Below are positions 23,635-25,628 of a stretch of DNA of 64,000 nt, in pieces; within the stretch, counting starts at the first letter, position 1; every line of letters begins with the position of its first letter. The notes under the pieces were generated by a model that made no database searches, had not been told where the DNA came from, and saw nothing but the letters and a program-made list of their open reading frames with translations. The DNA lies in NCBI GenBank assembly GCA_902627935.1, contig CACOLA010000001.1, positions 186,001-250,000 of the forward strand, in the 5' to 3' direction. This stretch comes from an uncultured Pelagibacteraceae bacterium. GTDB taxonomy: Bacteria; Pseudomonadota; Alphaproteobacteria; Pelagibacterales; Pelagibacteraceae. The position numbers and the translations under genes are program-made.

Positions 23635-24963
23635 TTAACTAACAGCTTTTAAATTACCTTTTGAGGATTTATTCAAAGCTTGATCTAAATCTTCTATAAT
23701 ATCATCAATGTGTTCGATACCAATGCATAATCTCACATAACTTTGGGTTACTCCTGAAGCGGCAAGTTCTTTTTCATTTAATTGGCTATGAGTAGTACTG
23801 GCAGGATGAATAGCCAAACTTCTCGCGTCACCAATATTTGCAACGTGATAAAACATTTTCAAAGATTCTATAAATTTTTTACCAGCCTCTATCCCTCCTT
23901 TAAGCTCAATACCTACCATTGGTCCATTTCCTCCATTTAGATATTTTTTTGCTCTATCTGCAATAAGCTTATCATGTTCGGTAGAATAGATAACTCTAGT
24001 TACTTCTTTATGTTTTTTAAGGAAGTTAACAACGTACTCTGCATTTGCACAATGTTGTTTCATTCTTAATGCTACGGTTTCAAGGCCTTGAATTATAGCA
24101 AAAGCATTATCAGGAGAACATGCTGAACCCAAGTCTCTTAATAAACAAACCCTAGCTCTGACTGCAAAAGGAACATTTGCTCCAGTTAGTTCAGGTACAG
24201 CTTTACCCCAAACTGCTCCATTATAACTAGCATCTGGTTCATTAAATAATGGTTGTCTTTTAGGATCTGCTGTCCAGTCAAAATTACCACTATCAACTAT
24301 ACTTCCTGCAATAGCGGTACCATGTCCTCCAATATATTTTGTAAGTGAATGAATTACTACAGCTGCACCGTGCTCAATCGGCCTACATATAACTGGAGCA
24401 GCAGTGTTATCCATTATTAGGGGTATGTTGTATTTTCGACCAATATCAGATACTTCTTTTATTGGAAAAACTCTTAAATATGGATTAGGTAAAGTTTCTC
24501 CATAAAAAGCTCTAGTTTTATCATCGATTTGATTTTCAAAATTTTTTGGATCTTTTGGATCTGCATACCTTATTTCAATACCAAGTTTACTTAAAGTGTG
24601 AGTGAACAAAGATACTGTTCCGCCGTACAAGTCTGTAGAGCTTACAATATTATCACCAGACTGAGCAACATTTAATACAGAAAATAATGATGCTGTTTGT
24701 CCTGATGACACTGTTAAGCAAGCTAAACCTCCTTCTAGTGCTGCAATTCTTTTTTCCAGTACATCATTTGTAGGATTCATTATTCTTGTATAAATGTTAC
24801 CAAATTCTTTTAATGCAAAAAGATTTGCTGCGTGATCCACACTGTTAAATTGATAAGATGTAGTTCTGTAAATTGGAACTGCTACAGCATTAGTTGTAGG
24901 ATCACTCCTATAATCGCCACCATGTATTGCAATGGTCTCGGGGTTGTTTCTTTTTTTACTCAT
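23635..24963 (-). CDS. metY: O-acetylhomoserine sulfhydrylase
   Basis: PLP enzyme of the Cys/Met metabolism family that makes homocysteine from O-acetylhomoserine and sulfide. The 442-residue length, N-terminus PETIAIHGGDYRSDPTTNAVAVPIYRTTSY and the long mid-region with TGANVPFAVRARVCLLRDLG distinguish MetY from the shorter MetB/MetZ. The PLP lysine is Lys209 (HSLTKYIGGHG). An SD sequence AAGGAG (24968-24973) precedes the ATG by four bases and lies inside a SAM-V-like RNA element, so translation is expected to fall when S-adenosylmethionine is abundant. The only gene of its transcription unit here. Confidence 0.95.
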   Translation of the reverse strand: MSKKRNNPETIAIHGGDYRSDPTTNAVAVPIYRTTSYQFNSVDHAANLFALKEFGNIYTRIMNPTNDVLEKRIAALEGGLACLTVSSGQTASLFSVLNVAQSGDNIVSSTDLYGGTVSLFTHTLSKLGIEIRYADPKDPKNFENQIDDKTRAFYGETLPNPYLRVFPIKEVSDIGRKYNIPLIMDNTAAPVICRPIEHGAAVVIHSLTKYIGGHGTAIAGSIVDSGNFDWTADPKRQPLFNEPDASYNGAVWGKAVPELTGANVPFAVRARVCLLRDLGSACSPDNAFAIIQGLETVALRMKQHCANAEYVVNFLKKHKEVTRVIYSTEHDKLIADRAKKYLNGGNGPMVGIELKGGIEAGKKFIESLKMFYHVANIGDARSLAIHPASTTHSQLNEKELAASGVTQSYVRLCIGIEHIDDIIEDLDQALNKSSKGNLKAVS

Positions 24964-24967
24964 TTTA

Positions 24968-25025
24968 CTCCTTTTTTAGTGCTTTTACTTTATGTAAGGC
25001 GCACAATACAGTTCAAATGCCTACC
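24968..25025 (-). promoter_or_regulatory. SAM-V-like riboswitch of metY, proximal element
   Basis: On the minus strand the leader reads GTAGGC (25024-25019), ATTTGAACTGTATTGTGC, then GCCTTAC (25000-24994), which can pair with GTAGGC with one bulge. GTGC (25004-25001) can pair with GCAC (24982-24979) to form a pseudoknot. The element ends in ACTAAAAAAGGAG, so the SD of metY is part of the 3' strand. This layout and the GCACUAAAAAAGGAG end match the SAM-V class known from Pelagibacter and other marine bacteria, which blocks ribosome binding when SAM is bound. Pairings were made by eye. Confidence 0.82.
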
Positions 25026-25042
25026 GATTATATAATGAAGTT

Positions 25043-25088
25043 CCATTTTAGCAGTTTTATGCCCGCAATAGGATCAAATCGGCATTTA
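25043..25088 (-). promoter_or_regulatory. SAM-II-like riboswitch of metY, distal element
   Basis: Upstream of the SAM-V-like element the minus strand shows ATGCC (25085-25081) pairing exactly with GGCAT (25063-25059). Between and after them are GATTTG, CC, TATTGC, ATAAA and GCTAAAATGG in the order of the SAM-II consensus (GAUUU..CC..UAUUGC...AUAAA..GCUAAAA.GG). I read it as a second, independent SAM aptamer in tandem with the first. About 17 bases separate the two elements. Confidence 0.75.
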
Positions 25089-25131
25089 CTTTTCTATCAT
25101 AAAGATGAGTAATTGCAATATAATTATCAAA

Positions 25132-25159
25132 TTGACTTTGAAGTTAATAATAGTATTAA
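25132..25159 (+). promoter_or_regulatory. Candidate promoter of rplM-rpsI
   Basis: TTGACT (25132-25137), a 16-bp spacer and TATTAA (25154-25159) form a sigma70-type promoter. The rplM ATG at 25170 is ten bases past the -10, predicting a 5' leader of only a few bases. Confidence 0.4.
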
Positions 25160-25169
25160 TCCTGGCACA

Positions 25170-25628
25170 ATGACTAAATTCTTAAAAAAAGACCAGTTGT
25201 CTTCAAACTGGTATGAAATTGATGCTACAAACGCAGTAGTTGGAAGACTAGCTACAGTAGTAACAAAAATTATAAGAGGAAAAAACAAAACTACATTTAC
25301 TCCTCATATGGATGATGGAGATTTTGTAGTTGTTAAGAACATTGAGCATGTAAAATTTACTGGTAAAAAATTTGAAAATAAAAAATATTATAGACACACA
25401 GGTCATCCTGGGGGAATCAAAGAAACTACACCCGAAAAATTAGCTGAAAAAAAACCAGGTGAGGCTTTAAAGCTTGCGGTAAAGAGGATGTTGCCAGGTG
25501 GTGTTTTAGGAAAAAAACAATTAACTAAATTGAAAATTTACACTGGAAGTGAACACCCACATGCTGCTCAAAATCCAAAAGTAATTGAAATTGGAAAATT
25601 AAATAACAAAAATATCATAAGAAATTAA
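25170..25628 (+). CDS. rplM: Large ribosomal subunit protein uL13
   Basis: Ribosomal protein L13: WYEIDATNAVVGRLATVV (13-30), TFTPHMDDGDFVVVKNIEHV, YYRHTGHPGGIKETTPEKL and AVKRMLPGGVLGKKQLTKLK are all conserved. I place the start at ATG 25170 (152 residues, normal length, N-terminus TKFLKKDQLSSNWYEID). An earlier in-frame ATG at 25113 would add 19 residues overlapping the promoter region and is not supported. The ATG of rpsI follows the stop directly. Confidence 0.94.
   Translation: MTKFLKKDQLSSNWYEIDATNAVVGRLATVVTKIIRGKNKTTFTPHMDDGDFVVVKNIEHVKFTGKKFENKKYYRHTGHPGGIKETTPEKLAEKKPGEALKLAVKRMLPGGVLGKKQLTKLKIYTGSEHPHAAQNPKVIEIGKLNNKNIIRN

Follow-up and report, generated by a model that had tools for sequence, protein, structure and literature searches.

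The closest described counterpart of the leader reported here is the tandem SAM-II/SAM-V riboswitch of Pelagibacter ubique HTCC1062, which reportedly goes back to Poiata 2009. Its host is a member of SAR11, a group of bacteria that ranks with the ocean's most abundant cells and relies on reduced sulfur, and in which metY makes methionine from methanethiol. In the accounts of the bhmT tandem, an intrinsic terminator follows the SAM-II aptamer (PMC9481103; PMC11508383; PMC5069961) and the linker blocks the SAM-II half (PMC11508383), for which an affinity of 1.2 uM is quoted (PMC5069961, citing Poiata 2009); the original set of 120 tandem cases is likewise described as having SAM-II always ahead of an intrinsic terminator (PMC9481103). 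As far as these sources list them, SAM-II aptamers are placed at bhmT and metX (PMC5069961) and metY and mmuM have SAM-V alone (PMC2704228), and the metY SAM-V is presented as having been crystallised as one aptamer, with a core that superimposes on SAM-II (PMC6061858).

Here, we examined the metY leader in a window of 64,000 nucleotides from an uncultured Pelagibacteraceae bacterium (Table 1). The gene behind the leader was confirmed as metY by TIGR01326 (569.9 bits against a cut-off of 495.1), and it shares a single intergenic region of 206 bases with the divergent rplM when the rplM start is taken at 25170. Two successive pseudoknot aptamers of SAM type, a SAM-II-like one followed by SAM-V, had been proposed for this leader by the initial annotation, and both were recovered, the proximal one by the Rfam SAM-V model and the distal one by a model built from canonical SAR11 SAM-II leaders (R2, below). 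Folded as a plain structure without pseudoknots, the leader did little better than chance, with a z-score of -1.46 and 17 of 200 shuffles folding equally well or better. The locus is a real tandem of a SAM-II-type element and SAM-V, in a form undescribed in the literature searched, and it probably works as a two-aptamer SAM riboswitch composed of a compact SAM-II, an anti-aptamer linker and SAM-V, without a terminator between them.

Table 1. Features of the metY leader and its surroundings, in coordinates of the window.
Feature	Position	Strand	Details
metY	23635..24963	-	O-acetylhomoserine aminocarboxypropyltransferase, 442 aa, ATG start; TIGR01326 above curated cut-off
metY leader	24964-25169	-	Read directly and scanned with Rfam
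rplM (ribosomal protein L13)	25170..25628	+	Divergent from metY; ATG at 25170 taken, frame open from TTG at 25113
SAM-V riboswitch	24965..25031	-	Bounds from the Rfam RF01826 model
Shine-Dalgarno AAGGAG	24968..24973	-	From the sequence; just 3' of the SAM-V pseudoknot strand
SAM-V P1 5' strand (A)GGC	25019..25022	-	Partner GCC(U) at 25000-24997
Putative anti-aptamer linker AAUCGGUA	25022..25029	-	Complement of UGCCGAUU at 25084-25077 with one G-U; ends at SAM-V P1
Compact SAM-II-type aptamer	25041..25089	-	Models R1 and R2, core pattern
Distal P1	25085-25081 / 25063-25059	-	AUGCC / GGCAU, exact pairing
Distal pseudoknot	25073-25071 / 25044-25042; 25066-25065 / 25052-25051	-	UCC / GGA; GC / GC
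Distal core words		-	GAUUUG, UAUUGC, GCUAAA
Possible sigma-70-type promoter TTGCAA-16-TAGAAA	25091..25118	-	Fitted pattern; predicted start near 25084

The identity of the proximal element as SAM-V is certain: RF01826, whose cut-off is 41 bits, scores it at 84.6 bits, with a window-wide E of 1.6e-12. In all 33 aligned leaders its P1 and pseudoknot are both paired, the two helices showing two-sided changes in 8 and 9 of the rows, and the last linker base and the base after GCC formed A-U in 110 of 115 distinct leaders, G-C in three, G-U in one and U-U in one. The SAM-V form proposed earlier stood as to the pseudoknot, since GUGC (25004-25001) and GCAC (24982-24979) are present, but the Shine-Dalgarno sequence lies just 3' of the second strand rather than strictly inside it.

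The Rfam check suggested by the initial annotation for both halves thus succeeded for SAM-V, while the SAM-II models stayed below their cut-offs on the distal element (RF01726, 19.3 of 44 bits; RF00521, 14.5 of 36 bits). For the HTCC1062 bhmT leader (L032), which carries a published SAM-II, Rfam 15 listed none at E up to 5. Because this published aptamer was missed too, the Rfam SAM-II test lacks power in SAR11, and the sub-threshold scores were not counted against a distal SAM-II; judging by the same miss, SAM-II is probably under-annotated in SAR11. The metX gene of the source genome (L154:1494-1547, G000:C3, minus strand) likewise has a canonical SAM-II at 32.9 bits, below the Rfam cut-off, with an A-rich loop opposite a U run directly after GCUAAAAUAG.

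Two models were built from separate sets of relatives. Model R1 held 33 compact elements and matched the distal element of the window at E 5.4e-15, the window copy being among its training rows. At E 0.01 or better, it matched in 154 of 397 Pelagibacterales genomes, and its weaker matches in other genera included SAM-II leaders of metX-like genes (L182 and L308-L312, E 4.4e-8 to 4.0e-5, with metX recognised by eye from the N-terminus), even though R1 contains compact elements only. Model R2 held 24 canonical SAR11 SAM-II leaders and zero compact ones, its rows being accepted on form and gene, with published binding for HTCC1062 bhmT only, as quoted in PMC5069961 from Poiata. Its sole significant match in the window was 25040-25087 on the minus strand (36.5 bits, E 9.6e-9), with second place in the 64 kb going to a stretch of 10.3 bits (E 0.6), and it found all 20 loci of a hand-chosen panel made up of 18 compact leaders without terminator, L182 and L183 (E 1.3e-10 to 6.5e-5). 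The models of these two sets of relatives recognised each other. The metX-like leaders resemble the metY leader in lying near the start codon and having a hairpin instead of a terminator, but no SAM-V was seen in them up to the start codon. In L182, one arm of the hairpin before the start codon, UACGAUUU, resembles loop 1 of the aptamer, which suggests a translational three-strand switch.

In form, the distal element matches the SAM-II consensus order (GAUUUG-AUCC-UAUUGC-(N)-GCUAAA), as had been claimed, and the AUGCC/GGCAU stem noted initially is indeed exact in the window. Within the 64 kb, a single match to the core pattern GATTTG-TATTGC-GCTAAA is present, and none of 100 dinucleotide shuffles contained one. 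By our placement of the positions given in PMC11508383, the eight ligand-contact bases of the bhmT SAM-II fall in GAUUU, AUUGC and GCUAAA, and these words were invariant in 33 of 33 rows, which had partly been selected on them. The invariant part of the distal stem across relatives is only a 3-bp GCC/GGC core; the fourth pair was Watson-Crick or G-U in 53 of 109 metY rows (U-A 30, A-U 17, U-G 5, G-U 1). Compensatory changes in the distal stems, which had been named as a check, were few: two-sided changes were seen in two pairs of P1 and P2 (5-30 and 16-49), and shuffles did at least as well in 342 of 500 cases for paired cells and in 51 of 500 for the covariation score, because P1 and P2 are mostly invariant. 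Judged by its sequence, the distal element is of SAM-II type, sharing with RF00521 (SAM_alpha) and RF01726 the H-type pseudoknot order, the ligand-core words and the reciprocal matches of the SAR11 models, and differing from them in a shorter P1, a shorter P1-P2 spacing and scores below both cut-offs. It would be expected to bind SAM.

The same compact element was found in HTCC1062, before metY (1005759-1005808) and before mmuM (732859-732908), by R1. At metY, R1 gave E 1.2e-13 with that copy within its training set, and R2, built without it, gave E 1.3e-6. The genome was taken as HTCC1062 on the basis of three SAM-V positions that fall within three intergenic regions given in PMC2704228. The metY SAM-V of the window is an ordinary member of the family (RF01826; PMC6061858), which has been described and crystallised singly, whereas its HTCC1062 copy has a compact SAM-II match directly upstream.

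A promoter pattern was present upstream of 98 of 110 leaders, compared with a mean of 15.5 after mononucleotide shuffling; it was fitted after reading the leaders, and these counts are descriptive. The end of the -10 element lay 6 nt before GCC in 66 leaders and 7 nt before it in the window. A general promoter scan did not list TTGCAA-16-TAGAAA, a simple sigma-70 matrix gave peaks at 6 and 11 nt that were scattered for metY and scored mmuM tandem leaders no better than shuffles, and a TG-extended pattern was found in only 5 of 110 leaders (2.4 after shuffling). From this consensus, transcription is predicted to start at or just before GCC, which, if right, would limit the distal P1 to about 3-4 bp.

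Downstream of the aptamer, the metY linker varies, apart from a conserved AAUCGG(U/C)A that immediately precedes SAM-V P1. Its AAUCGGU is complementary to the aptamer's GCCGAUU, which spans the P1 strand and the first part of loop 1. Unguided RNAalifold picked this anti-aptamer pairing (columns 6-10/73-77). In a ligand-free ensemble, its median probability was 0.993, while that of P1 was 0.000, across 107 of 107 metY rows (two of the 109 rows, without CGG in the linker, were excluded); omitting both pseudoknot and SAM, this ensemble is biased towards the anti-aptamer from the outset. The linker duplex was significant (p < 0.05) against mononucleotide shuffles in 95 of 95 metY linkers, in 8 of the 17 from mmuM tandems and in 4 of the 5 from stand-alone mmuM elements, and it was better than with a reversed target in 94, 17 and 5, respectively. 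Against dinucleotide shuffles, which tend to leave UCGG whole in short linkers, it was significant in 29 of 99, 5 of 17 and 4 of 5. None of the 26 distinct terminator-type linkers that served as negative control passed (30 loci parsed by pattern), and 9 of the 17 mmuM tandem linkers failed even the mononucleotide test. The anti-aptamer helix had zero two-sided changes in the aligned leaders and is without covariation support because its core is nearly invariant.

The complementary stretches of mmuM leaders differ in their letters (AUCAAA...GCAA, AUCAA...UGCA, GAUCAAAU or UCAAUUCGG) but are all aimed at one strand of the aptamer, the one targeted in metY leaders. This points to selection for pairing rather than for letters in these linkers, as read by eye and with about half of them not individually significant. 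Two further ideas were set aside. Competition of aptamer U5 and SAM-V P1 for the last linker A was judged weak, both because the mRNA, going by its predicted start, may not include U5 and because 19 of the 109 metY rows show A-A at this place. Covariation of the SAM-V P1 5' strand with the distal P1, noticed by eye at HTCC1062 mmuM, was rejected, as L051 keeps GCC with GGU/ACC.

The initial annotation had also suggested that one element could act on transcription and the other on translation. For the distal element, an action through an intrinsic terminator was not supported: a general terminator scan found none in the metY leader, the one terminator-like site (25212-25192) lying upstream of it inside rplM, and it called sites in 0 of 119 compact leaders of relatives, against 29 of 29 terminator-type leaders used as positive control. 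The feature that marks the published bi-mechanism tandem, an intrinsic terminator after SAM-II, is therefore absent here. The metY leader resembles the HTCC1062 bhmT tandem in having SAM-II and then SAM-V in one methionine-gene leader with SAM-V beside the Shine-Dalgarno sequence, and a role for the linker is proposed here as it is for bhmT, where the linker reportedly prevents SAM binding by the SAM-II half. It differs in being compact and without terminator, the published form having a GCGC stem and, after SAM-II, an intrinsic terminator, and in having a linker antisense to the aptamer 5' strand, unlike terminator-type linkers.

To place these forms among relatives, we inspected 177 distinct SAM-V loci. 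Of these, 150 were the best-scoring part of a longer listing; the other 27 were added by a targeted search in 29 genomes whose matches were weak or unusual (two of its 29 loci were repeats). A compact SAM-II without terminator stood upstream in 125 of the 177, before metY and mmuM and including HTCC1062 (119 by pattern; two by eye, namely L033 and L089, of which the L089 leader is cut by a contig end; and four from the targeted search). The published type, a GCGC-stem SAM-II followed by a terminator, accounted for 42 (29 + 13), and one intermediate locus, G388, had a compact SAM-II followed by a terminator. The remaining nine inspected loci had SAM-V without SAM-II, all before a metY-like gene and with SAM-V scores of 33 to 62 bits, one of them below the cut-off; SAM-V can therefore stand alone. 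The SAM-V elements of these loci (L332, L335, L340-L343 and L345-L347) are degenerate. The G388 leader (L183 / L305), with compact SAM-II, intrinsic terminator and SAM-V before metY, is a possible evolutionary intermediate.

Inspection of 22 more mmuM leaders with SAM-V, three of which are also among the 177, brought the mmuM tandem loci to 28 (6 + 22), with L033 uncounted. Five mmuM loci had the compact element alone (L151, L169, L172, L177 and L178). L151 (G000:C1:14910-14958, minus strand) is the source genome's own mmuM, with a compact SAM-II and no SAM-V; a downstream GAUCAA could pair with UUGAUC of the aptamer or with an AUUGAU that immediately precedes the start codon. In a pattern scan of GTDB contigs, 78 of the 80 matches listed were Pelagibacterales by title, the two outside SAR11, in a Spirochaetia MAG (L190) and in Helicobacter anseris (L243), being probably chance; one match in virus contigs was likewise taken as chance. 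Among the 29 terminator-type leaders, an automatic word check recognised SAM-II in 17 and reading added the remaining 12, which have the GCGC stem, GCUAAA and the terminator but altered core words, GAGUU and/or CUUGC. GAUUU to GAGUU and AUUGC to CUUGC occur together, at ligand-contact positions, in L125, L129, L134-L137, L140-L143 and L145, and only one of the two changes occurs in L107 and L344.

Taken as a two-aptamer riboswitch, the metY leader would place the compact SAM-II at or a few bases from the predicted mRNA 5' end, with the transcript starting no further downstream than GCCGAUUUG, and SAM-V next to the ribosome-binding site. At low SAM, the linker would capture the 5' end and unfold the SAM-II aptamer, so that the anti-aptamer would be the ligand-free state, a proposal that conservation, folding and the negative control support and covariation does not. 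When SAM is present, the SAM-II aptamer would form first during transcription and the linker would be released directly against SAM-V P1; SAM-V would then close and hide the Shine-Dalgarno sequence, and with plentiful SAM both sensors would switch metY off. The linker helix lies flush with SAM-V P1 and could compete with it or stack on it. The distal state would presumably reach expression either by helping SAM-V to fold or at the transcript level, via Rho or decay.

The second of these routes could also be how the distal aptamer acts without an intrinsic terminator, SAM freeing the linker and thereby bringing about Rho-dependent termination or a change in 5'-end access and decay. In the data reported for exponential HTCC1062 cells under sulfur limitation, metY mRNA rose 7.14-fold and its protein 2.24-fold, and mmuM mRNA rose 6.08-fold (PMC5069961), mRNA changes that exceed what a purely translational switch needs and that count for the two-aptamer reading as well; a start at the aptamer would moreover mean that the mRNA 5' end itself pairs with the linker. 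SAM-V on its own can lower mRNA as well by repressing translation, though, and the start site is a prediction, and we regard this reading as rather unlikely. Less likely again is a distal SAM-II that has decayed, has lost its switching and is held shut by the linker, as has been reported for bhmT, where the SAM-II half of the full-length RNA is described as responding little to SAM (PMC11508383). The predicted linker helix is far stabler than P1 in the ensemble without pseudoknots and P1 has only three invariant base pairs; yet the ligand-core words are kept in 115 of 115 distinct compact leaders, which is not expected of decay, although the search pattern included them, and five mmuM loci have the element by itself, which makes this reading improbable.

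Two other origins of the distal conservation were considered. The initial annotation had suggested that both elements may be related by duplication of one aptamer in the leader, and AUUUGA, UAUUG and an AAA-rich 3' strand do recur in both; these shared words are, however, the common ligand core of SAM-II and SAM-V as described in PMC6061858, R2 picks the distal element and does not list the SAM-V of the window at E up to 10, and relatives have a GCGC-stem SAM-II at the same place, leaving duplication very improbable. Scarcely credible, too, is a role for the distal sequence as promoter or leader of the divergent rplM, despite the one intergenic region that serves both genes, as the same element stands before mmuM elsewhere in the source genome (33 loci in all), a promoter-like pattern lies directly upstream on the metY strand, and the SAM-II order reads on that strand.

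That the type is not new, as had been stated, is right for the SAM-II/SAM-V tandem as such, but the published form has a terminator, and in the largely open-access literature searched a compact terminator-less SAM-II was not described at metY, nor was the terminator-less compact form at mmuM. More tentatively, metY (and mmuM) of Pelagibacter, the strain in which SAM-V was discovered among them, may possess a single coupled device that binds two SAM, the first setting the folding of the second and giving a steep response without a terminator.

In the genomes inspected, SAM-II/SAM-V tandems lacking a terminator outnumbered those of the published form. The structure and affinities of the metY SAM-V were measured on RNA excised from a longer leader, and if the second aptamer is true, these affinities and the single-switch model need another look. 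The compact tandem also offers a small natural system in which to ask whether one antisense strand can physically couple two aptamers.
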